DNA of 41,332 bases from Nitriliruptoraceae bacterium. Lineage in GTDB: Bacteria > Actinomycetota > Nitriliruptoria > Nitriliruptorales > Nitriliruptoraceae. The translations under genes were made by a program, and so were the position numbers. The stretch spans positions 1 through 41,332 of the forward strand of contig SKJX01000059.1 of assembly GCA_007121785.1 (NCBI GenBank), in the 5' to 3' direction. Positions 4,316-32,767 of this stretch are shown here, piece after piece (the stretch's first letter is position 1; every line of letters begins with the position of its first letter). The notes under the pieces are model-generated. The model searched no databases. It saw nothing but the letters and a program-made list of their open reading frames with translations, and had not been told where the DNA came from.

Positions 4316-4557
4316 CCAACAGGTGCTTCCGCCGGTGACCGCAGGGACAGTGCTCCGTCGTCGGCCGAGCGACCGGTCGACCTACCGAGCCGGATGGGGC
4401 GTCGCGATCCGGGAGAGGGGACCCGGCTCGCGTCCCGACGGGACATCCAGCGACGGAGCGGTGGCCGGGCCGAACGCCGGCCGGGCGTGAGCGTACCGTC
4501 CGCGGTCCGTCACCCCAACGCTGCGCAGCGGGCCGCGGCGGAACGGACGCGGGCCGG

Positions 4558-5208
4558 TCAGCCGGCCGCGGCGGGCACCTCGGCGTCCAGGTGCTCGTAG
4601 AACGACAGGATCTGTAGCTCGGTGGACAGGTCGACGGTCCGCACGGTCACCGTGTCGGGGACGTCGAGGTGGACCGGGGCGAAGTTGAGGATCGCCGTGA
4701 CACCGGCGGTCACCACCGCGTCCGCGACCGACTGGGCGACGGACGCGGGCGTCGCCACGACCGCGATCCCGATGCCGCGGGCGTCGACGAGCTCGGGCAG
4801 GGCCGTGTCCGGTTCGACGAGGTGCCCGGCGATGCGTTCGCCGACCAAGGTGGGATCGCGGTCGACCAGGGCAGCGACGTGGAACCCGCGCCGGGTGAAC
4901 CCGTCGTAGCTGGCCAGCGCGCGACCGAGGTTGCCGACGCCGACGATCACCACGGGGCGGTCGTCGCCCAGACCGAGGACCTTGGAGATCTCCTCGGCCA
5001 ACCCGCGGACCTGGTAACCGACGCCCCGGGTGCCGTACGTCCCCAGGAAGGACAGGTCCTTGCGCACCTTGGCGGAGTTGAAGCCGGCCGCCCGCGCGAG
5101 TTCGTCGCTGGAGATCGTCGGCGTCCCGTCTTCCGCGGCATCGACGAGCGCCTGGAGGTAGGCCGGCAGCCGGGCCACGGTCGCCTCAGGGATCCGACGT
5201 TCGCTCAC
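4558..5208 (-). CDS. rex: Redox-sensing transcriptional repressor Rex
   Basis: A 216-residue Rex. Rex dimers sense the NADH/NAD+ ratio and repress respiratory and fermentation genes; NADH binding releases DNA. The N-terminal winged helix contains ISSDELARAAGFNSAKVRKDL (residues 32-52) and the FLGTYGTRGVGY wing; the Rossmann domain starts VVIVGVGNLGRAL (86-98), the diagnostic Rex motif, and ends in the swapped C-terminal helix (STELQILSFYEHL). The gene sits between a glutaredoxin-like gene and hemA, as in other Actinobacteria where rex precedes hemA and controls it together with respiratory genes. I looked for a TGTGAA-N6-TTCACA type Rex site in 4316-4557 and 5209-5263 and saw no clear match. 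Confidence 0.97.
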   Translation of the reverse strand: MSERRIPEATVARLPAYLQALVDAAEDGTPTISSDELARAAGFNSAKVRKDLSFLGTYGTRGVGYQVRGLAEEISKVLGLGDDRPVVIVGVGNLGRALASYDGFTRRGFHVAALVDRDPTLVGERIAGHLVEPDTALPELVDARGIGIAVVATPASVAQSVADAVVTAGVTAILNFAPVHLDVPDTVTVRTVDLSTELQILSFYEHLDAEVPAAAG

Positions 5209-20170: not shown

Positions 20171-21363
20171 TCAGTCACGCCGCAGCGCCTCCACCGGGTC
20201 GAGCTGCCCGGCCCGGCGCGCCGGCAGCACCCCGAAGATGATGCCGACCGCGACCGACGTGCCCAGCGCCAGCGCGATCGACCACCAGGTGACCTCCGCC
20301 GGCACCGGCGCGAACTCGGCGACCAGCGCCGCTCCGCCGATACCCAGCCCCAACCCGATGACCCCCCCGAGCACCGTGAGGGCGACCGCCTCGAGGAGGA
20401 ACTGGACGGTGATGTCGCGGGTGCGTGCCCCGAGGGCCTTGCGGAGCCCGATCTCGCGGGTGCGTTCGCTCACCGACACCAGCATGATGTTGGACACCCC
20501 GACGCCACCGACGAGCAGCGAGATCCCGGCGATCGCACCGAGCACCGTGGTGAGGATTGACAGGATGTCGCCCACCACACCGATGATCTCGTCCTGGCTG
20601 ACGACGCTGAACTCGTCCTCGTCGAGCCGCTCGCCGAGCACCCGCTCGGTCGTGCTGCGGTCGACCTCGATCGTCTCGGTGGAGCTCGCACGCACGAAGA
20701 TCGAGTCGATGCGGTCGGTGCCGAACAGCCGCTGCCCGGTCGTGACCGGGACCAGGACCGTCCGATCCTGGTCCGGACCGAACGGGCTGGCCTCACCACC
20801 GATGCGGGTGAGGACCCCCACGACCCGGAACTGGATCCCCCCGATGCTGAACTGGCGACCGATCGGGTCCTGCCCGGCGAAGAGCTCCTCGGCGGTGGTC
20901 GCTCCCAGTACCGCCGTCCGGCGGGAGGTCACCACGTCCGACTCGGTGAAGGGCTGGCCGCGGCCCAGCTCACGATCCAGCACGCTGGTGTAGCCGGCCG
21001 TGACGGCCTGCACGGTGGCGTTGAACCGCTGGCCATCGGCCTGCAACGACTCCGCTCCGACAGCCGAACCGGCGACCCGCGGCTGCTCACCCGGCAGCTG
21101 GCGGTCGATGCGCTCGATGTCGTCGGCGATGAAGCGGCTGCGGGACGGGCCGGATCCGAAGTCGCCGTCCCCCGGCAGGACGAACAGCAGGTTGGACCCG
21201 AGCCCCTCGATCGCCCCGGTGATCTCCGTTCGGGCACCTTGGCCGATCGAGACGAGCAGCACCACCGACATCACGCCGATGAGCACACCCAGGGTGGTCA
21301 GCGCCGAACGCAGGCGGTTGGACAACAACGCCTGGAGCGCGACCCGGATGGCTTCGCGTGCGC

Positions 21364-21367
<4 letters not shown>
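20171..21367 (-). CDS. MacB-like ABC transporter permease (FtsX/MacB fold)
   Basis: A 398-residue permease of the MacB/LolCE type. One N-terminal helix (SALTTLGVLIGVMSVVLLVS, about 22-41) is followed by a large extracytoplasmic MacB_PCD domain (about 45-250) and three C-terminal helices: ILTTVLGAIAGISLLVGGVG, LEAVALTVLGGVIGLGLGIG and WWSIALALGTSVAVGIIFG, with ERTREIGLRKALGARTRDI as the coupling loop between them. GTG start overlaps the ATPase stop as GTGA. With its ATPase and the lipoprotein adaptor it forms a mechanotransmission-type pump; family members export peptides, lipids or drugs. In a monoderm-like actinobacterium no TolC would be needed. Substrate unknown. Confidence 0.95.
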
Positions 21368-22055
<688 letters not shown>

Positions 22056-22059
<4 letters not shown>

Positions 22060-23699
22060 CAGCCGGCCCCGACGCGATCCCGCGGCCCCACGGTCGACCG
22101 TGCCGCCGCCTCGTCGTCCACGTCCGCCGTCTCGCGGAGATCCACCTCGTCCCCGTCGGAGACCAGCTCGACCCCGGTCGTGATGACGGTCTCCCCCCGC
22201 TCGACCGCCCCGTCGATCGCCGCGTCCTGGTCCCCGATCGCGAGCAGCTCGACCGGGACCTCCTCCGCGATGCCGTCACGCACGACGTAGACCACCTCGC
22301 GGTCGCCACGTCGCAGCAGCGCCGAGGTGGGCACGGCCAGGTCCGCGTCGATGCGGGCCACCTCGATCTCCACCGCCGCGGTCAGCCCGACCCGCAGCTC
22401 GACGTCGTCGGGGACGTCGGTGAGCGCCACCGTGACCGGGTACCGGGCACCCCCGGCCGGGTCCCGTACCGGCTCGATCGCGACGCGCTCGACCCGGCCA
22501 CCCAGCTCCTGCCCAGCGAAGGCGTCGACGAGTACCTCCACGGGTTGGCCGGTCGTCACCTCGACGATGTCGAGCTCGTCGACCTCGACCCGCGCCGTGA
22601 AGCTCGAGAGGTCGTACACGGTGGCCAGGACCTGACCGGCACCGAGCTGGGAGCCCACGGTCAGCGGCCGGTCGTCCCCACCCTCCGCGGCGCCGCCGGA
22701 CGACCCGAGCTCACCGAGCTCACCGAGGTCCGGCACGTCGCCGGCGAGGCCTCCCAGGTCGCCGAGACCGTCGAGGTCGCCGAGGCCGTCGAGGTCGCCC
22801 CCGCCTGCCGGCGGACCCGGGCCACCCCGGTCGCGCTCGAGTTGCACGACCCCATCGATCGGCGCCACCACGGTCAGCTCATCCAACCGCGCCTCGGTCG
22901 CTTCCAGGGCGGCCTGTGCCTGGCCGACCTGCGCTTCCACCGCGGCGGCCTGCGCCGCCTCGGTCGCCTCGGTCTGGGCAGCGAGCTGCGACTCCACCTC
23001 CTCGAGCTCCCCGGACGCCTCCCGGAACGAGCTCCGCGTCGCCGCGAGCTGGCCACGGGCGTCGTGCACGGCGCGCTGGGCGTCCTCGAGCTGTTCGATC
23101 GCGGCGGAGCCGTCCGGGCCCTCCGGCAGCTCGTCGGGATCGAGCCCATCGACGACCTCGAGGACGTCGCCGTCCTCCAGCGCGTCGAGTACCTCGTCGC
23201 GCAGGTCGTCCGCGGCGTCGGTCACCTCCGTGAGGCCGATCACGGCCGAGCCCAGGGCGGACTCGGCCGCGGCGACCTGCGCGTCGAGCGCACCGATCAG
23301 CCCCGGCAGGACCGTGTCGACCTGTCCGCGCAGGGAGCCGACGACCGGCGCGAGATCGAGCCCGGCACCCGCCGCGCCCTCACCCGCAGCGCGAGCGGCC
23401 GCGACGGCCTCCTCGGCCTGCTCGATCTGCTCATCGAGCTCGTCCGATGACAGCCGCACGAGCAGGTCGCCCTCCTCGACGCGGTCACCGTCTGCGACGG
23501 CGAGCTCCACCACCTCACCGCTGACCGTGGTCGTGACCGCAGCCCGTGCCGCCGGCGCGAGCTCGGCGGGCGCCGCCACCGTCTGGACGACCTCCGCCTC
23601 GCGGACCTCGGCCGTGCCGAGCTGCGGCTCATCCTCGCCGGTGCAGGCCGTGAGCACCACGCCGAACACGAGCGGCAACAGGATCCGGTTGACGGGCAC
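22056..23699 (-). CDS. MacA/HlyD-like efflux adaptor lipoprotein
   Basis: A 547-residue adaptor. A lipoprotein signal ends in VVLTACTG (lipobox LTAC, Cys19), so it is anchored outside the membrane. Two half lipoyl/barrel-sandwich motifs (VSGEVVELAVADGDRVEEGDLLVRL and LTVVAPIDGVVQLERD) flank an extended helical hairpin of about 230 residues rich in Ala, Glu and Leu. Then come a beta-barrel domain and a membrane-proximal domain ending near AVERGETVITTGVELV. An insertion after the second lipoyl strand (about 330-375) is a Gly/Asp/Leu repeat (GDLDGLGDLDGLGDLGGL). Start GTG 23699 has GAGG five bases before it; an in-frame TTG five codons upstream is possible. It heads a coupled operon with the ATPase and permease. 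Function: docking substrate to a MacB-like pump, inferred. Confidence 0.92.
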
Positions 23700-23787
23700 G
23701 ACGACCTCGACCAACGAGCGACGGGGACACGAGGGTACGGCGCCACCCGCACGTGCAGATCGGCACCACGCCGCCGACGTCCCGGCG

Positions 23788-24603
23788 TCAGCGACCGCCG
23801 GCCGCCAGCTCCTCGCCACGCAGCTTGGCGGCCTCGATCGCGTCGAGGAACGCCGCCCGGACACGGGCGCTCTCGAGCTCGCGGATCGCGGAGATCGTGG
23901 TCCCACCAGGGGAGGTCACCATCTCGCGCAGCTGGACGGGGTGAGTGCCGCTCTCACGGAGCATCTTGGCGCTACCGACCATCGTCTGCACGATCAGCTC
24001 GGTGGACACGTCCCGCGGCAGGCCGAGCAGGATCCCGGCGTCGATCATCGCCTCAGCGAGCAGGAAGAAGTAGGCCGGCCCCGACCCCGACAGGGCCGTG
24101 ACGGCGTTGAGGTGCTCCTCGCCCATGCGGATCACGCTGCCGACGTGGCTGAGGATCGCCTCGGCCAGCTCGAGGTCGGCATCCTTCGCGTGGGTCCCGG
24201 CCGACACCACCGACATGGCGGCATCCACCTGCACCGGCGTGTTGGTCATCACCCGCACGACGGGGACCTCGCCGGGGATCGCGTCCTGGATCGCGGCGGT
24301 CGTGGTGCCCGCCGCGACGGAGATCACGGTCTGGTCGGGGTTGAAGGCATCGCCGAGTTCGCCGACCACGTGGAGCAGCACCTGCGGCTTCAAGGCGATC
24401 AGGACCACGTCCGCCGCTTCGATCGCCGCACGGTTGTCCAGGGTCGCCTTGACCCCGTGCTCGCGCTCGAGCTCCTCGCGCCGGTGCTCGAGCCGCGTCG
24501 TGCAGATGACCTGGTGCGGCTCCACCCACCCGGAGCGCAGCAGGCCCCGCAGCAGCGCCTCACCGATGCGCCCGGTGCCGATGATGGCCAGCGTGCCGTT
24601 CAG
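23788..24603 (-). CDS. proC: Pyrroline-5-carboxylate reductase ProC (CTG start)
   Basis: A 271-residue ProC, which reduces pyrroline-5-carboxylate to proline with NAD(P)H. The Rossmann motif AIIGTGRIGEALLRG is at residues 6-20; further landmarks are DVVLIALKPQVL, VISVAAGTTTAAI, RVMTNTPVQV, ALSGSGPAYFFLLAEAM (the catalytic/dimer signature) and REMVTSPGGTTISAI. The start is notable: no ATG, GTG or TTG lies before the Rossmann motif, while CTG at 24603 has GAGGAGG five bases upstream. The next conventional start, GTG at 24525, would delete the nucleotide-binding motif. I therefore take CTG as the start. Biosynthesis gene; it lies 30 bases after the YbjN-like gene. Confidence 0.93.
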   Translation of the reverse strand: MNGTLAIIGTGRIGEALLRGLLRSGWVEPHQVICTTRLEHRREELEREHGVKATLDNRAAIEAADVVLIALKPQVLLHVVGELGDAFNPDQTVISVAAGTTTAAIQDAIPGEVPVVRVMTNTPVQVDAAMSVVSAGTHAKDADLELAEAILSHVGSVIRMGEEHLNAVTALSGSGPAYFFLLAEAMIDAGILLGLPRDVSTELIVQTMVGSAKMLRESGTHPVQLREMVTSPGGTTISAIRELESARVRAAFLDAIEAAKLRGEELAAGGR

Positions 24604-24633: not shown

Positions 24634-25152
24634 CTACGGCCGCGCACGGTCGGCCGCCTTCGCGGCGTCGATCCCGTCGGACGGCGTGGTGTCCCCGACC
24701 GGGTTCGGGGGGAGACCCGCACGCTCGCGCCAGCGCTGCTCGGCCGCCAGGTACCCGGCGAACCCGGTGCGCAGCACCTGGTTGAAGGTCTCGTCGGCGA
24801 GGCCCAGCACGGCACCGAGCAGCTCGTCGATGCCGCGCTCGTCCAGGGCGGCGTAGGCAACGGCACCCGTGATGATGACGTCGCCCTCGTCATCGAGCGC
24901 GAAGTGGACCGGTCCCGGGCGCTGGTTGCGTTGCAGGAGGATGCGGTAGACGGCCTCGTGCCCCTCGTCGAGCGCGCCGGTGAACAGGGAGGTCACCTTG
25001 AGGGTCCGGTCTCCCAGTTCGAACAGGACCGGGATCGTGCGCTTCCACTCGCCGCTGAGCGTCGTCATGAGGCGTCGCTCGTTCACCGGCGTCACCTCGA
25101 GCTCGGCTCCGGCCAACGCCGCCCGTAGCCGGTCGGCGACCTGCTCACGCAT
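24634..25152 (-). CDS. YbjN domain-containing protein
   Basis: A 172-residue protein of the YbjN family (PF10722), a type-III-secretion-chaperone-like fold in Actinobacteria. Landmarks: LSGEWKRTIPVLFELGDRTL, VTSLFTGALDEGHEAVYRILLQRN, PVHFALDDEGDVIITGAV, and GIDELLGAVLGLADETFNQVLR. Such proteins often sit near mshA in Actinobacteria; here mshA is about 8 kb away. Start ATG 25152 has GGAGG six bases before it. Function unknown; suggested partner of other proteins. proC follows 30 bases later and may share the transcript. Confidence 0.9.
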   Translation of the reverse strand: MREQVADRLRAALAGAELEVTPVNERRLMTTLSGEWKRTIPVLFELGDRTLKVTSLFTGALDEGHEAVYRILLQRNQRPGPVHFALDDEGDVIITGAVAYAALDERGIDELLGAVLGLADETFNQVLRTGFAGYLAAEQRWRERAGLPPNPVGDTTPSDGIDAAKAADRARP

Positions 25153-25181: not shown

Positions 25182-28100
25182 CTACGAGGTCCGCGAGGCA
25201 CCCGCCGTCGGTGACGGCTCCGCCGACGCGGCCAGCTCCTTCACGACGGAACCCGCCAACGCCAACGCCCCGTCGGCGGTCAGGGCCTCGCCGGTGGCCT
25301 GGGCCTGCGCCGCGACGCTCACCCCGAGCCGCTGCTCCGCGCGGGCGATGACCGCGTCCACCTCTGCGCGCTCGTCCGGCGTCAGCGCCACCTCGCCGGT
25401 GGTCCGCAACATCTCCGACGCGGCGCACAGCTGCAGGGCGAGCTCGTCGCGACCGATCCCGGAGGCGATCGCGCCGACCCCCCGCAGATCGCGGGCGAGC
25501 CCGACGAAGTCGAACGCGCTTCGGGTCAGCTCCCGGACGGTGGCGAGGTTCTGTCCGTGCAGCGCGAGCGCCTGGTCCACGCCCCCCTGGCGACGAGCCA
25601 CCCAGGCCCAGCCGAGCCGGGAGAGGCAGGCGCTCCACCGGTCCTCCGCGTCGAGGTACCAGCGTTCGCTGGCTTCGAACGCCGCCGCCGCGCCCGCCAG
25701 GTCCCCGGTGGCGGTCGCCAGGTGACCCGCGACGTCGGACAACCCGGCGAGCACCCACGGGTCGTCGCTGCCCTCGGCCTGCGCGTCGACGAGGGTGCGC
25801 GCCGCAGCGTCGGTCTGGCCGGCGATCTGCCGTTGCTGCGCGAGCCGCGCCCGGGCCAGGACCACCAGGTCGCGGTCGTCGACCTCCTCGGCCAGCCGCT
25901 CCGCGTGCTCGAGCCGCTCGAGCGCATCGACGGTCCGCCCTTCCACGCCGTCCAGCCGGCCCGCACCGTAGGTCGCCCGGGCCAGCGTCCGACGGTCGAC
26001 GCTGGACTCGTCGATCCGCTCGAGCACGCGCGTGAGCCAGCCCGCTCCCTCGTGCGCGTGCCCGAACTGGAGCCAGAACCACCAGATGCCGGCGACGATC
26101 CGCAACGCGAGATCCTCGCATCCCTGGTCCAGCGACCAGGTCAACGCGGCCCGCAGGTCGGCGTGGTCGGTGTGGAGCAGGTTGAGCCAACGCACCTGGT
26201 CGGCGCCGGTCAGCTCCGCGGCTGCGGCGTCAGCCAGGTCCGCGTGCCAACAGGCGTGCGCCGCCGCGAGGGCGACCTCGGCGGGCGCATCCAGCCGCGA
26301 CCGCGCGAAGGATCGGATCGTCTGGAGCAACGCGTGGCGAGCCGGCCCGATCGGCTCGGGGACCGTCAACACCAACGAGCGGTCCACCAGATCATCGAGG
26401 AGCTCGAGCACGAGCTCGGCGGGGAGCTGCTGCGCGTCGGCGCAGATGCCCTCGGCCGCCGCAACCGTGAACGGGCCCTCGAACACCGTCAGGCGGGTCA
26501 GCAGCTGCTGCGCCGGCGGTCGCAGCAGCTCGTAGCTCCACGCGATCGCGGCCTCGAGCGTCTGATGACGAGCGGGGACACCCCGTCGTGACGACCGCAG
26601 CATCCCGAACCGGTCGTCCAGTCGGTCGGCGATCTCCTCGACCGACAGGACGCGGAGGCGGGCGGCCGCCAGCTCCAGAGCGAGCGGGATGCCGTCCAGC
26701 TCACGGCAGATGGCCGCGATCGCCGCGGCGTCGTCCTCGGTCGGGGTGAACCCCGGCCGGACGCCGACGGCTCGGGCCACGAACAGCGCCGCCGCGTCGC
26801 TCTCACCCAGCTGGTCCAGCGACGCGTCGGCCGGGGGCAGCGAGAGCGACGGCACCCGCCACACCAGCTCCCCGTCGAGGTCGAGCGTCTGCCGGCTGGT
26901 CGCCACCACCTGCAAGGTCGGGCAGCGGCGCAGGAGATCCCCGATGACGGCCGCGCACTCGTCGACCAGGTGCTCAGCGTTGTCGATGAGCAGCAGGATC
27001 GGTCGTCCACCGATCCGGGAGACCAGGTCCTCGACGAGCTCCGGCAGGGGGGCGTCGTCGACCCCGAGCACCTGCGTGATGCTGCGGAGCACGCCGTCGG
27101 GCTCGCGCACCGACTGCAACTCGACCACCCAGGCCCCACCGGGGAACCGGGGCGAGGCGTCGCGGGCCAGCTGGAGCCCCAGCTGCGTCTTGCCGCAGCC
27201 GCCTGCGCCGGTCAACGTGATCAGCCGCGACCGCTCGAGTTCGTCGACCAGTCGTCGCCGCTGCTCATCACGGCCGACGAGGTCGACCATCGCCGCCGGC
27301 AGGTTGCCGGGGACCTCGACCGGTGCCACGACCACCGCTGCGGGTGGGTCGTCGGCCCGACGCCGGGGCGACCCGGTCTCCGGCGTCGCGCTCACGCGGG
27401 CACCGCCCGGCCCACGTGGCGTCGCCGAGTCGGCGAGCAGGTCGTCGACCGGTGGCGACAGCGACGGGTCCTGGGCGAGCATGCGCTCGTGTAGGTCGTG
27501 GAGCTGACGGCTGGGTTCCATACCGAGCGCATCGACCAGCAGGGCCCGCGCCCGCCGGAAGGCGGCCAGCGCCTCCGCCTGGCGCCCGGATCGGTACAGC
27601 GCCAGCATCGTCAAGCCGTGGAGACGTTCCCGCGTCGGGTTCGCCGCGACCAGTGGCTCGAGTTCGCCCGCCAACTCACGGTGACGGCCGAGGCTCAGGT
27701 CGGTGGCGATGCGCTCCTCGGTGACGGAGAGACGCAGCTCGTCCAGGCGCGTCGCCTCAGCGCGTCCCCGCTCCCCCAGGTCGGCACCCTCGGCGACCGT
27801 GCCTCGCCACCGTCCCAGCGCGCAGCGGAACCGATGCGTGGCCGACTCACCATCGCCGGTCGCCGCGATCTCACGGGCCTCGAGGATCTCCTGCTCGAAC
27901 CGGACCACGTCGATCGAGACGGCCCGAGGGTGGAGCCGGTAGCCGGCCGAGGTACGCACCAGCGTCGCCGGCGCGTCGCGGGCTCCCCGGTCGGGTTCCA
28001 ACGCCCGCCGCAGCCGGGACAGGTAGCTCTGGAGCGTGTCGACCGCTCCCGGCTGGGCGTCCTCGCCCCACACCTCCGCCACCAGTGCCTCGCTGGAGAC

Positions 28101-28223
28101 CGGAGCACCCCCGGCCAACGCCAGCGCCGCGACGACGCTCGCCGGCCGGCGGCCACCGATCGCCACCGGCTCCCCCGCCGGGGTCAGCACCTCGACGGGA
28201 CCGAGCACGCCGACGTGGATCAC
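25182..28223 (-). CDS. AfsR/SARP-type BTAD regulator with ATPase and TPR region
   Basis: A 1013-residue large SARP regulator. Region 1-100 is an OmpR-like winged helix (LGPVEVLTPAGEPVAIGGRRPASVVAAL then TLQSYLSRLRRAL), 105-250 the bacterial transcriptional activation domain (FEQEILEARE... LHGLTMLALYRSGRQAEALA), 315-600 an NB-ARC/STAND ATPase with Walker A GAGGCGKTQ (339-347), Walker-B-like ILLLIDNAEHL and the LPLALELAAARLRVL motif, and beyond about 690 TPR-like repeats. Start GTG 28223 has GGAGGGAG upstream; a nine-codon longer frame places the site inside it. Family members are activators binding 11-bp-spaced direct repeats. It lies divergent from putP-proline dehydrogenase-pruA, and such a repeat (CTGCAGGG twice, 11-bp period) lies between, so control of proline use is a plausible role. 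Confidence 0.94.
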   Translation of the reverse strand: MIHVGVLGPVEVLTPAGEPVAIGGRRPASVVAALALAGGAPVSSEALVAEVWGEDAQPGAVDTLQSYLSRLRRALEPDRGARDAPATLVRTSAGYRLHPRAVSIDVVRFEQEILEAREIAATGDGESATHRFRCALGRWRGTVAEGADLGERGRAEATRLDELRLSVTEERIATDLSLGRHRELAGELEPLVAANPTRERLHGLTMLALYRSGRQAEALAAFRRARALLVDALGMEPSRQLHDLHERMLAQDPSLSPPVDDLLADSATPRGPGGARVSATPETGSPRRRADDPPAAVVVAPVEVPGNLPAAMVDLVGRDEQRRRLVDELERSRLITLTGAGGCGKTQLGLQLARDASPRFPGGAWVVELQSVREPDGVLRSITQVLGVDDAPLPELVEDLVSRIGGRPILLLIDNAEHLVDECAAVIGDLLRRCPTLQVVATSRQTLDLDGELVWRVPSLSLPPADASLDQLGESDAAALFVARAVGVRPGFTPTEDDAAAIAAICRELDGIPLALELAAARLRVLSVEEIADRLDDRFGMLRSSRRGVPARHQTLEAAIAWSYELLRPPAQQLLTRLTVFEGPFTVAAAEGICADAQQLPAELVLELLDDLVDRSLVLTVPEPIGPARHALLQTIRSFARSRLDAPAEVALAAAHACWHADLADAAAAELTGADQVRWLNLLHTDHADLRAALTWSLDQGCEDLALRIVAGIWWFWLQFGHAHEGAGWLTRVLERIDESSVDRRTLARATYGAGRLDGVEGRTVDALERLEHAERLAEEVDDRDLVVLARARLAQQRQIAGQTDAAARTLVDAQAEGSDDPWVLAGLSDVAGHLATATGDLAGAAAAFEASERWYLDAEDRWSACLSRLGWAWVARRQGGVDQALALHGQNLATVRELTRSAFDFVGLARDLRGVGAIASGIGRDELALQLCAASEMLRTTGEVALTPDERAEVDAVIARAEQRLGVSVAAQAQATGEALTADGALALAGSVVKELAASAEPSPTAGASRTS

Positions 28224-28298
28224 GCGCTCTCTCCCTCCAACTCGAGGCACCGGCCCTCGGGCTCCTCCCCGTCCACAGGTCCGGCGGGTGCCGCGAGC

Positions 28299-28317
28299 CT
28301 GCAGGGAAGCTGCAGGG
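28299..28317 (+). promoter_or_regulatory. Candidate BTAD/SARP operator, 11-bp-period direct repeat
   Basis: CTGCAGGG occurs at 28299-28306 and again at 28310-28317, centre to centre 11 bp. That spacing is typical of SARP-family sites, with heptamers repeated every 11 bp. It lies in the 200-base divergent gap between the BTAD regulator (start 28223) and putP (start 28423). I see no unambiguous -10 next to it. Confidence 0.5.
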
Positions 28318-28422
28318 TTCCCGCAACCGCCATCGGAGAGTCTGCCGCCTCAGCACACTCAGCGCACGAGCCGTGGTGGGGAGAGCCCCGCGGCGACGCC
28401 ACCGGCCAGAGGGAGCGAGCGC

Positions 28423-29916
28423 ATGTTCGACGTGGATGGGGCGGTCATCACCACGATGGCCATCTACCTGTTGATGATGGTGGGTATCGGGGTGTGGATG
28501 TACCTCCGCACCTCGAACCTCGATGATTTCGTGCTGGGGGGCCGGTCGCTGGGCAGCTTGCCGGCCGCGCTCAGCGCGCAGGCGTCCGACATGAGCGGGT
28601 GGCTCCTGCTCGGCCTGCCGGGAGCGATCTACGTCAGCGGCATCGGGGCGTCGTGGATCGGCATCGGCCTGCTCATCGGGACCTGGGCCAACTGGAAGTT
28701 CGTCGCGTCCCGGCTGCGCACCTACACCGAACGGGCGGGCAACTCGGTCACCTTGTCGGCGTACTTCGAGAACCGGTTCGAGGACAAGAGCCGGACGCTG
28801 CGAGCGGTCTCCGCTCTCGTCACGGTCATCTTCTTCTCGTTCTACGTCGCCTCAGGGCTCGTCGCCGGGGGCCTGCTCTTCGAGATGGTGTTCGGCATCG
28901 ACCAGACCACCGCCATCACCGCCAGCGTCATCGTCATCGTGCTCTACACACTCCTCGGCGGGTTCCTGGCCGTGAGCTACACCGACGCCGTCCAGGGCGT
29001 GTTGATGGTCGGCGCGCTGATCCTCGTCCCGATCGTCGCGGTCGCGGCCGACGGCGGGTTCGCGACGATGGCCGACACCGTCCGCGCGGAGTCCCCGACG
29101 CTGTTGCAGATGTTCGGTGAAGCCGGGTTCGAGGACGGCGCGTGGACCGTCGGCGGCTCCCTCGGGGTCATGGCGATCATCTCGAGCCTCGCCTGGGGTC
29201 TCGGCTACTTCGGTCAGCCCCACATCCTGGCACGCTTCATGGGGATCCGCGACGCGTCGATGGTTCCGATGGCGCGCCGGATCGGTGTGAGCTGGGTCGC
29301 GATCTGTCTGGTCGGCGCGGTGCTGGTCGGCGTCGCCGGCATCGCCTTCTTCGACACCCCGCTGGACAACCCGGAGACGGTGTTCCTCAGCCTGATCGGT
29401 GAGACCGTCAACCCGTGGATCGGTGGGATCCTGCTCACGGCCGTGCTCGCCGCGGTGATGAGTACCGCCGACTCGCAGCTGCTGGTGTCCTCCTCGGCGT
29501 TGACCGAGGACGGCTACCGCGCCTTCGTCAAGCCCGACGCCACCGACACCGTCCTGCTGTGGGTCGGGCGGCTGACGACCGTCTTGGTCGCCGCGATCGG
29601 CTACAGCCTCGCCCTCGGCGGCGGCACCGTCCTCGACCTGGTGGCCTACGCCTGGGCCGGCTTCGGCGCCGCGTTCGGCCCACCCATCGTGCTGTCGCTG
29701 TACTGGAACAAGATGACCGGTGCGGGCGCCCTGGCCGGCATGATCAGCGGCGCCGCCACGGTCGTGCTGTGGGACCTGTTCGCGCCCGGCAACCTCTACG
29801 AGATCGTGCCTGGCGTGATCGTCTCCGCCATCGCCGTGATCGTGGTCAGCCGGATGACGACGCCACCGGAGCGCGACTGGTCCGAGGCCGCCGTCGCGAC
29901 GTACGAAGCCGCTTGA
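28423..29916 (+). CDS. putP: Sodium/proline symporter PutP
   Basis: A 497-residue sodium:solute symporter (SSF family) importing proline with Na+. Thirteen hydrophobic helices are visible. Family features: the first helix region with DDFVLGGRSLG (residues 30-40), ALSAQASDMSGWLLLGLPG (about 48-66, SSF signature and Na+ binding in PutP), a GGFLAVSYTDAVQGVLM loop and helix, LGYFGQPHILARFM, the FAAVMSTADSQLLVSSSALTED-type segment (VLAAVMSTADSQLLVSSS), and FGPPIVLSLYWNKMT. These are specific to proline-type members. ATG 28423 has a GGGAG eight bases upstream. It leads a run of proline-catabolism genes and is divergent from a BTAD regulator; a strong hairpin after it suggests partial termination before the dehydrogenase genes. 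Confidence 0.96.
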   Translation: MFDVDGAVITTMAIYLLMMVGIGVWMYLRTSNLDDFVLGGRSLGSLPAALSAQASDMSGWLLLGLPGAIYVSGIGASWIGIGLLIGTWANWKFVASRLRTYTERAGNSVTLSAYFENRFEDKSRTLRAVSALVTVIFFSFYVASGLVAGGLLFEMVFGIDQTTAITASVIVIVLYTLLGGFLAVSYTDAVQGVLMVGALILVPIVAVAADGGFATMADTVRAESPTLLQMFGEAGFEDGAWTVGGSLGVMAIISSLAWGLGYFGQPHILARFMGIRDASMVPMARRIGVSWVAICLVGAVLVGVAGIAFFDTPLDNPETVFLSLIGETVNPWIGGILLTAVLAAVMSTADSQLLVSSSALTEDGYRAFVKPDATDTVLLWVGRLTTVLVAAIGYSLALGGGTVLDLVAYAWAGFGAAFGPPIVLSLYWNKMTGAGALAGMISGAATVVLWDLFAPGNLYEIVPGVIVSAIAVIVVSRMTTPPERDWSEAAVATYEAA

Positions 29917-30105: not shown

Positions 30106-31074
30106 ATGCTCCGGTGGATGCTGCTACAGGCGGCCGACAACCCGACGTTGGCCGCGTTCGCCCGGTCGAGCTCCCTCGTCCGCGGCGTCGTGGACCGGTA
30201 CGTGGCCGGGGAGTCGATCGAGGACGGCATCGCCGCGGCCTCCGCGCTGGCTGCCGGCGGGATCGACCTCACGATCGACCACGTCGGCGAGTTCGTCGAC
30301 TCGATGGAGCAGGCCGAACAGGCCGCCGAGGTCTACCGCCGCCTGCTCGAGCACATCGGTGACCGCGAGCTGCCCGCGGGCGTGTCGGTCAAGCCCAGCC
30401 AGTTCGGCCTGTTGATCGACCGCGACGCCTGCGTCGCGCTGATCCATGACGTGGCCAAGCGCGCCGCTGCCGCGGGGGTCCACGTGACCCTCGACATGGA
30501 GGATCACACGGTCACCGAGACCACGGTCCGGCTGGTCGAGGAGGCCCACGCCGCCGGAGCGACCAACGTCGGCTGTGCCGTCCAGTCCTACCTGCACCGC
30601 ACGCCCGAGGACGTCCGGCGCCTGACCCGCCTTGGCGCCAGCATCCGGCTGTGCAAGGGCGCGTACGCCGAACCGGCGCACCTCGCGCATCAGCGGCCGG
30701 TCGAGGTGACCCGCGCCTACCTCCGGGACGCGCGCTACCTGCTCCGCGAGGCGACCGAACCCCGGTTCGCGACCCACGACCACAAGCTGGTGGGCGCCAT
30801 CAAGCGGGAGGCCGCCGAGCTCGGACGCGACCGCGGCAGCTACGAGTTCCAGATGCTCTACGGCGTGCGCCCGGACATGCAGCGCGCCCTCGTCGCCGAC
30901 GGCTACCGGCTGCGGCTGTACCTGCCGTTCGGGAGCCAGTGGTACCCGTACTTCACCCGACGGTTGGCGGAACGCCCCGCCAACCTGGTCTTCTTCGCAC
31001 GGTCGTTGACCGCCGCACCCCGCCCCGACCGTGTGGAAGAGCCCGAAACGGCCAGTTCGGACCAGGCCTGGTGA
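30106..31074 (+). CDS. Proline dehydrogenase (monofunctional)
   Basis: A 322-residue flavin-dependent proline dehydrogenase of the monofunctional bacterial type, oxidising proline to pyrroline-5-carboxylate. Core sequences: SLVRGVVDRYVAGESIEDGI, GIDLTIDHVGEFVDS, VSVKPSQFGLLIDRD, VHVTLDMEDHTVTE, VGCAVQSYLHRTPEDVRRL, IRLCKGAYAEP, ATHDHKLV, YEFQMLYGVRPDMQ, and RLYLPFGSQWYPYFTRRLAERPANLVFF, which includes the active-site Arg pair RRLAER. ATG 30106 has AGGAGG six bases ahead. It lies between putP and the P5C dehydrogenase gene in the order expected of a put operon without the long fused PutA. Confidence 0.97.
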   Translation: MLRWMLLQAADNPTLAAFARSSSLVRGVVDRYVAGESIEDGIAAASALAAGGIDLTIDHVGEFVDSMEQAEQAAEVYRRLLEHIGDRELPAGVSVKPSQFGLLIDRDACVALIHDVAKRAAAAGVHVTLDMEDHTVTETTVRLVEEAHAAGATNVGCAVQSYLHRTPEDVRRLTRLGASIRLCKGAYAEPAHLAHQRPVEVTRAYLRDARYLLREATEPRFATHDHKLVGAIKREAAELGRDRGSYEFQMLYGVRPDMQRALVADGYRLRLYLPFGSQWYPYFTRRLAERPANLVFFARSLTAAPRPDRVEEPETASSDQAW

Positions 31075-31141
31075 GACCAGCGCCCGTCCACGACCCGACC
31101 CGGTCCCCCGACCCCGGCCACCCGAGCACAGGAGACCACCC

Positions 31142-32767
31142 GTGAGCGACGGCATCGTCCGCGTCCCCGACCCCTTCAACGAGCCGGCACTCGGCTACGC
31201 GCCCGGCAGCCCCGAGCGCCGTTCGCTCGCCGAGACGATCGCCACGATGTCGGCACAGACCGCCGACCTGCCCTGCGTCATCGGCGGCGAGGAGGTCCGC
31301 ACCGGCAACACCTTCACGCAGCGAGCCCCCCACCGCCACGACCTCGCGCTCGCGGAGGTCCACGCCGCAGGTGCGGACGAGGTGAAGCGTGCCGTCGAGG
31401 CCGCCAGCGAGGCCAAGGCCGACTGGGCCCGCCTGCCGTTCGAGCAGCGGGCCGCGATCTTCCTACGCGCGGCCGACCTGCTGGCCGGGCCGTTCCGTGA
31501 TCGGATCAACGCCGCGACGATCCTCGGCCAGTCGAAGTCCGTGCAGCAGGCCGAGATCGACGCGGCGTGCGAGCTGATCGACTTCCTGCGCTTCAACGTC
31601 GCCTTCGCCGCGCAGCTGTACGAGGAGCAGCCGATCTCGGTCGACGGGGAGTGGAACCGCGTCGATCACCGACCGCTCGACGGGTTCGTGCTCGCGATCA
31701 CCCCGTTCAACTTCACCGCCATCGCCGGGAACCTGCCGACCGCGCCCGCGATCGTCGGCAACACCGTGGTCTGGAAGCCCTCCGAGAAGCAGGCGCTCGC
31801 CGCGCAGGTCACGTTGGACGCGTTGCACGCCGCCGGGCTGCCCGACGGGGTCATCAACCTCGTCCACGGTGACGGTGCGCTGGCCGCGGAGGTCGCGACG
31901 GCCGACCCCCGGTTCGCTGCGCTGCACTTCACCGGCTCGGAGACGGTGCTGTCGTCGCTGTTCCAGCAGGTCGGCAACAACGTCGGCCGGTACCGCAACT
32001 TCCCGCGCATCGTCGGCGAGTCCGGCGGCAAGGACTTCGTCGTCGCCCACCCGACCGCGGACGTCGACCGGCTGGTGATCGCCCTCGCCCGGGGGGCGTT
32101 CGAGTACCAGGGCCAGAAGTGCTCGGCCGCGTCCCGCGCCTACCTGCCGCGCAGCGTCTGGTCACCGGTGCGCGACCGGATCGCCGACGTCGCGAACGAG
32201 CTGACGATCGGTGACGTCGGCGAGGACCTGTCGACCTTCATGGGTGCGGTCATCGACGGCAAGGCGTTCGCCAAGCACCGCGACGCGATCGCCAAGGCGA
32301 CCGACGAGGGCGCCGAGCTGCTGGTCGGCGGCGACCTCGACGACTCGCACGGCTGGTTCGTGCCCCCGACGGTCCTGGTCAGCGACGACCCGCGATCGTC
32401 GACGATGACCACGGAGCTGTTCGGCCCGATCCTGACGATCCACGTCTACGACGACCACGGGTTCGAGGACGTCCTCGCCGAGGTCGACCAGGCCAGCGAC
32501 TACGCGTTGACCGGCGCGATCTTCGCCGACGACCGTCGTGCCGCCGCGCACGCGACCGAGGCCCTGCGCCAGTCGGCCGGCAACCTCTACATCAACGACA
32601 AGCCGACCGGCTCGATCGTCGGCCGACAGTGGTTCGGTGGCGCCCGCCGCTCGGGCACCAACGACAAGGCCGGCTCGGTGCTGAACATGATGCGCTGGAT
32701 CTCCCCACGCGCGATCAAGGAGACGTCCGTCGCGCCGACCGACTGGCGCTACCCGCACCAAGGCTGA
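31142..32767 (+). CDS. pruA: L-glutamate gamma-semialdehyde dehydrogenase (P5C dehydrogenase)
   Basis: A 541-residue NAD+-dependent aldehyde dehydrogenase oxidising glutamate semialdehyde to glutamate. Typical PruA blocks: FNEPALGYAPGSPER near the N-terminus, FLRFNVAFAAQLYEEQP, FVLAITPFNFTAIAGNLP, VVWKPSEKQ, the catalytic general base in RIVGESGGKDFVVAHP and nucleophile Cys in FEYQGQKCSAASRAY, FMGAVIDGKAF, and TELFGPILTIHVY. The GTG start at 31142 has AGGAG eight bases upstream. It follows the dehydrogenase gene by 67 bases and completes proline to glutamate conversion. A bidirectional hairpin follows the gene. Confidence 0.97.
   Translation: MSDGIVRVPDPFNEPALGYAPGSPERRSLAETIATMSAQTADLPCVIGGEEVRTGNTFTQRAPHRHDLALAEVHAAGADEVKRAVEAASEAKADWARLPFEQRAAIFLRAADLLAGPFRDRINAATILGQSKSVQQAEIDAACELIDFLRFNVAFAAQLYEEQPISVDGEWNRVDHRPLDGFVLAITPFNFTAIAGNLPTAPAIVGNTVVWKPSEKQALAAQVTLDALHAAGLPDGVINLVHGDGALAAEVATADPRFAALHFTGSETVLSSLFQQVGNNVGRYRNFPRIVGESGGKDFVVAHPTADVDRLVIALARGAFEYQGQKCSAASRAYLPRSVWSPVRDRIADVANELTIGDVGEDLSTFMGAVIDGKAFAKHRDAIAKATDEGAELLVGGDLDDSHGWFVPPTVLVSDDPRSSTMTTELFGPILTIHVYDDHGFEDVLAEVDQASDYALTGAIFADDRRAAAHATEALRQSAGNLYINDKPTGSIVGRQWFGGARRSGTNDKAGSVLNMMRWISPRAIKETSVAPTDWRYPHQG

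Follow-up and report, generated by a model that had tools for sequence, protein, structure and literature searches.

In the stretch of Nitriliruptoraceae DNA analysed here (41,332 nucleotides; hereafter the window) a 1022-aa SARP is encoded divergently from putP, proline dehydrogenase (proDH) and pruA. We consider it very probable, on the grounds of sequence comparison, that this adjacent SARP activates proline uptake and catabolism via a three-unit operator located at the putP promoter. Regulator and operator are of a known kind, and it is the target, a set of proline genes, that is unusual. The locus is composed of the following features:

23788..24525, minus strand: proC, pyrroline-5-carboxylate reductase (TIGR00112 above cut-off)
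24634..25152, minus strand: YbjN-domain protein, retained next to the locus in G003, where the SARP is absent
25182..28250, minus strand: large SARP regulator (P0001), ORF of 1022 aa with uncertain start codon; Trans_reg_C, BTAD, NB-ARC and helical C-terminus
28299..28306, plus strand: putative operator unit 1, CTGCAGGG; repeat and conservation across loci
28310..28317, plus strand: putative operator unit 2, CTGCAGGG; repeat and conservation across loci
28321..28328, plus strand: putative operator unit 3, CCGCAACC; same register in 9 distinct loci
28338..28343, plus strand: -10-like hexamer GAGTCT, 9 bp past unit 3 toward putP; A at +2 and T at +6 conserved
28423..29916, plus strand: putP, sodium/proline symporter (SSF/PutP; TIGR02121, 614.7 bits, cut-off 515.5)
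30106..31074, plus strand: proline dehydrogenase (PF01619 above cut-off)
31031..32767, plus strand: pruA, L-glutamate gamma-semialdehyde (P5C) dehydrogenase (TIGR01236 above cut-off)

Profile matches agree with the genes named in the original prediction (BTAD, SSF/PutP, proline dehydrogenase and P5C dehydrogenase). The true start of pruA probably lies further in, because most relatives align from about residue 28–44. Left of proC (20171–23906, minus strand) the window contains a MacB-like permease and a long HlyD/RND-type adaptor, both unrelated to the operator.

The whole site is held in the 172 bp gap between the regulator ORF and putP. The original prediction had described a SARP-type two-copy repeat in this shared intergenic region, and CTGCAGGG is indeed found at 28299–28306 and 28310–28317 with a period of 11 bp. 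The SARP spacing stood, the number of units did not, since a third unit, CCGCAACC, and the hexamer GAGTCT had been overlooked. Altogether three 8-bp units follow each other at an exact 11-bp period between 28299 and 28328, an arrangement that fits the 11- or 22-bp spacing of direct repeats described for SARP sites (PMC10936776). The SARP literature places the 3’ repeat 8 bp from the -10 element, a figure that depends on the repeat boundaries; in the window 9 bp follow the 8-bp core. Taken alone the two-copy repeat is weak: when the gap underwent 5000 dinucleotide shuffles, 45 of them produced a period-11 repeat of at least 8 bases, and 99 did so if periods 10 and 22 were admitted as well. Two period-11 repeats of at least 8 bases exist in the window as a whole.

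The layout of three units, 9 bp and an A..T hexamer is also found in G002, G009, G031, G038, G041, G039, L045, L047 and L048. The last three are Nitriliruptoraceae MAG contigs and represent the same loci as G018:C266, G021:C144 and G008:C122 (identical site sequence). Across the nine distinct loci the fourth base is C in 27/27 units, including all nine third units, and the predicted operator consensus is approximately (C/T)TGCA(A/G)G(G/C), repeated every 11 bp. Because the sites had first been chosen by eye, we carried out tests free of such a choice. With a leave-one-out model the site ranks first in 10/10 loci. In a blind scan using a model made from the window’s three units, the best triple of the locus falls into the regulator/proline gap in all eight other loci; the same model gave no more than 7.7 for ten SARP-less regions upstream of putP.

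A census was then based on proline dehydrogenase in 66 genomes of the class (matches at E<=1e-40 in 41 genomes) and on PutP (matches at E<=1e-120 in 12 genomes, plus the split PutP of G025). We scored 350 bp upstream of 54 putP/proDH starts, 52 of which had enough sequence: the regions upstream of ProDH in G023 and PutP in G064 were too short, and the ProDH regions of G001 and G031, with 194 and 325 bp respectively, were kept despite their reduced length. With a model derived from the window only, the site was recovered upstream of all 12 starts that have a divergent SARP (scores 12.8–23.8; among the genomes, G002 is near-identical to the window). In all twelve the A +2/T +6 hexamer stands at a gap of 9 bp, a fixed short distance between 3’ repeat and putative -10 as expected for the SARP family. 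The site was absent from all 40 putP/proDH upstream regions without a divergent SARP (maximum score 10.7), some of which are operon-internal regions behind putP rather than promoters in their own right. At the level of sequence, site, spacing and -10-like element are conserved together, and the site is missing where the regulator gene is missing. The split PutP of G025 (G025:C1:2764068-2765523) matched as two overlapping pieces, which suggests a frameshift or an assembly error.

We also searched the 66 genomes for the pattern irrespective of gene context, allowing up to 2 mismatches. This gave 22 rows representing 21 distinct places in 17 of the genomes. The reversed pattern used as control gave 27 matches, so that a single match proves nothing and raw counts mean little. 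Proline loci account for 12 of the 21 places, and in the window’s genome, G009, G038 and G041 the matches are confined to the proline locus. Two of the places are new SARP|proDH-pruA loci outside the motif definition (L211 in G026 and L212 in G030), with the hexamers CACCCT and CATCCT, respectively, at a gap of 9 bp. A chance repeat in GC-rich DNA, to which the shuffled gaps lend some weight, is therefore rejected: its probability is practically negligible in view of the leave-one-out ranking, the blind scan, the hexamer conservation, the gene-blind search and the census.

Several matches of the gene-blind search deserve description in their own right. L204 (G063:C49, 4880–5980), one of the 12 proline places, appears to be a decayed SARP|putP-proDH locus with a still recognisable operator: by eye, fragments of putP and of the beginning of the SARP gene can be read on either side of it, and the proline dehydrogenase frame is shifted. 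In L210 (G021:C276, oriented 4480) and L214 (G010:C39, oriented 4859) similar triple sites with the hexamer at a gap of 10 bp lie upstream of genes for a universal stress protein and a sodium:alanine symporter (assigned by Pfam for the G010 genes only, PF01235). No SARP gene is present within these two stretches, and the symporter is a possible second target in genus g8. A further match, in G030 (L213), is close to such a gene but on the opposite strand. Matches in G062, G063:C78, G055, G042 (twice) and G037 adjoin neither a SARP nor a proline gene, except for a weak SARP-like ORF near the one in G037; given the 27 control matches, we treated them as unexplained or due to chance. Among them, L206 and L207 (G055 and G042, two species of one genus) carry a well-kept triple, TTGCAGGG GG(G/A) TTGCAGG(C/G) CGG CTGCACC, near genes for an amine-oxidase-like protein and a cell-wall-binding protein, with no SARP within the stretch.

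The site might mainly serve autoregulation of the regulator gene, the proline genes being mere neighbours. It lies 48 bp from the first GTG of the regulator ORF, and the PimR operator is likewise described as adjoining its regulator gene (PMC5930380). We consider this unlikely, however, because the -10-like hexamer is directed: at a gap of 9 bp A +2/T +6 occurs on the proline side in 9/9 loci and at other offsets from 0 to 39 on this side in at most 1/9, whereas the regulator side has two offsets at 2/9 and none above this value. Moreover, the divergent gene is putP or proDH wherever the site adjoins a SARP of the proline-linked group. The same site could in addition serve the regulator’s own promoter. 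The presence of the site in 12/12 against 0/40 regions and the restriction of the hexamer to the proline side strongly support the originally predicted SARP operator linking the BTAD regulator to the proline genes.

A regulator and the site are kept at these loci while the divergent partner varies between putP-proDH-pruA, putP and proDH-pruA. The complete unit putP-proDH-pruA is found in the window, G002 and G038, and probably in G031, where proDH behind the end of putP is on another contig. In G009, G041 and G039 putP is divergent without an adjoining proDH, and in G018, G008, G021, G026 and G030 the divergent unit is proDH-pruA. In G009, G041 and G039, proDH is located elsewhere and lacks a site upstream, and therefore only transport is touched there. 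The odd in-frame stops of proline dehydrogenase in G041 and G039 turned out to be ordinary gene ends with proC next to them. On the regulator side proC is frequently retained among relatives. In G003, which belongs to the same genus as the window, the order is proC-ybjN-(nothing)-proDH-pruA, and SARP, putP and site are all absent from this locus.

The regulator P0001 carries the OmpR-type winged helix followed by a BTAD domain that characterises SARPs (PF00486 and PF03704 above cut-off). As in AfsR-type proteins an NB-ARC/STAND region and a TPR-like C-terminus follow: PF00931 is barely above cut-off (23.9 vs 23.5 bits), and modelled helices extend over residues 655–1009. The AF2 model (six sequences, mean pLDDT 76, pTM 0.43) shows the SARP head followed by the NB-ARC region and, at the C-terminus, helices, and Foldseek matched it to AfsR (8k60; TM-score 0.89 by target), EmbR (2ff4) and the STAND-TPR structure 6mfv. 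Residues 10–277 align with AfsR, and R79, S75 and W61 are the equivalents of AfsR R92, T88 and W74; they are invariant in both large-SARP alignments. P0001 is not an AfsR ortholog, because it scores 197.6 bits with the equivalog model NF053617, for which the cut-off is 1430 bits.

The operator could be real and yet be read by another regulator, for example by one of the nine other BTAD proteins in the window’s genome, which encodes ten in total. Similar sites away from any SARP gene in two genomes would fit such an arrangement, but it is very unlikely when considering that in the census the site follows the adjacent SARP gene without exception and that the adjacent SARPs group in the tree: in a tree of 22 SARP domains, one branch has all ten proline-linked domains on the same side, with support values of 90/92, which is good but not decisive. 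Upstream of some other SARPs in the window’s genome looser 11-bp repeats occur, with a best score of 13.4 in L173 (G000:C9). There, three GTGCA repeats at 11 bp (oriented 4545–4574) are found where a further gene for a large SARP begins; a cytochrome P450 is its neighbour, and the repeats possibly form another SARP operator. The window’s genome further encodes four PucR-type proteins (PF13556) above the Pfam cut-off. In other actinobacteria, proteins of this type regulate proline genes, and the originally proposed “lineage without PutR/PruR” finds no support here.

Our preferred reading, activation of putP-proDH-pruA by the adjacent SARP, rests, besides the conservation of the site, on its match to the AfsR and PimR operators in geometry, on the AfsR-equivalent residues and on the AfsR-like modelled fold. 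AfsR of Streptomyces coelicolor is described as binding 11-bp repeats side by side with the first 8 bp contacted; its box lies between -40 and -19, whereby the polymerase uses a promoter with a poor -35 element (PMC10936776). The domain order SARP, NOD and TPR is shared by P0001 (PMC10936776). The -10 element of the afs box, CACTGT, resembles C-A-x-x-x-T, and GAGTCT of the window has A +2 and T +6 in common with it (PMC10936776). Setting the -10 at -12 to -7 would leave 9 bp between the 8-bp core and this element in the afs box, as in the window (PMC10936776). In contrast to AfsR, the window has three units instead of the two repeats of the afs box, and its target is proline metabolism instead of antibiotic control (PMC10936776). 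Unit number and spacing, and the location in a regulator/target promoter region, are those of the PimR operator at pimM of Streptomyces natalensis, for which three CGGCAAG heptamers with 4-bp spacers and an 11-bp period are given (PMC5930380). The core, (T/C)GCA(A/G)G in the window, is similar but not identical to this heptamer (PMC5930380). PimR is a SARP-LAL regulator with an antifungal cluster as target, whereas the window combines a SARP-STAND protein with proline genes, and the PimR operator is stated to avoid overlap with the -35 box (PMC5930380).

By analogy, the AfsR-like SARP-STAND protein would bind the three-unit operator as side-by-side monomers, one per unit. The operator would lie on a putP promoter holding only a -10-like element, and the bound SARP would help RNA polymerase to use this promoter, so that putP, proDH and pruA are switched on. 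By covering the promoter the SARP could also repress the proline genes, as units 2 and 3 would span -40 to -19 including the place of the -35 element. SARPs are known as activators, however, which makes repression very improbable. AfsR activates from exactly that position (PMC10936776).

Under the activation mechanism the STAND/TPR part may receive a cue for available proline, be it proline itself, P5C or a derived state. While we infer binding, activation by the SARP and proline sensing from the comparisons above, proline or P5C as the sensed ligand is a guess from context. In AfsR the STAND/TPR part is reported to inhibit the SARP domain, ATP relieves this inhibition, and whether an inducer binds the sensor domain is said to remain elusive (PMC10936776). 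MalT is a STAND activator with maltotriose as inducer (PMC10936776). The window system resembles MalT in its nucleotide-binding STAND switch ahead of catabolic genes and differs from it in DNA-binding domain and operator. MalT carries a LuxR-type DNA-binding domain. An operator of the kind seen in the window also occurs in G041 and G039 (L036, 9770–12100; L037, 1–2430), where the SARP beside it is a small one that has BTAD but lacks NB-ARC. Proline sensing by the STAND part is therefore not general. The small SARP adjoins a glutamate dehydrogenase gene (by Pfam in G041, by sequence likeness in G039); glutamate dehydrogenase is the enzyme after proline oxidation. A wider interpretation, which we put forward only tentatively and hold to be rather doubtful, is that this SARP lineage represents a dedicated ligand-gated regulator of proline use, with a MalT-like STAND/TPR switch on an AfsR-type head sensing proline or P5C. 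A small SARP without sensor would read the same operator in one sister genus, and the regulon would reach a sodium:alanine-type symporter in trans in g8.

Proline use is controlled by the Lrp-like PutR in Caulobacter (PMC6168545) and by DNA-binding PutA (PMC9132996), which would share this task with the window’s SARP but belong to unrelated regulator families. A search of the open-access literature, with subscription papers mostly outside its coverage, gave no report of a SARP-proline link among the matches listed. A paper on PteF was discarded as precedent, as it reports proline genes in the mutant of a PAS-LuxR regulator and not of a SARP. To our knowledge, large SARPs have been studied almost solely as antibiotic regulators. 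EmbR and MoaR1 are SARP-like regulators outside antibiotic control. A secondary-metabolite cluster is the typical, though not strictly defining, SARP target; the site described here adjoins putP, proDH and pruA, and our findings support a role of SARPs in primary metabolism. As the likely inducer is easily guessed and the operator is compact, the signal of a large SARP becomes directly testable, and the natural variants at one operon (large SARP, small SARP, SARP-less and decayed locus) offer a ready comparison. The conservation of the pairing across a little-studied class of Actinomycetota suggests that SARP-type regulators also run ordinary nutrient metabolism.
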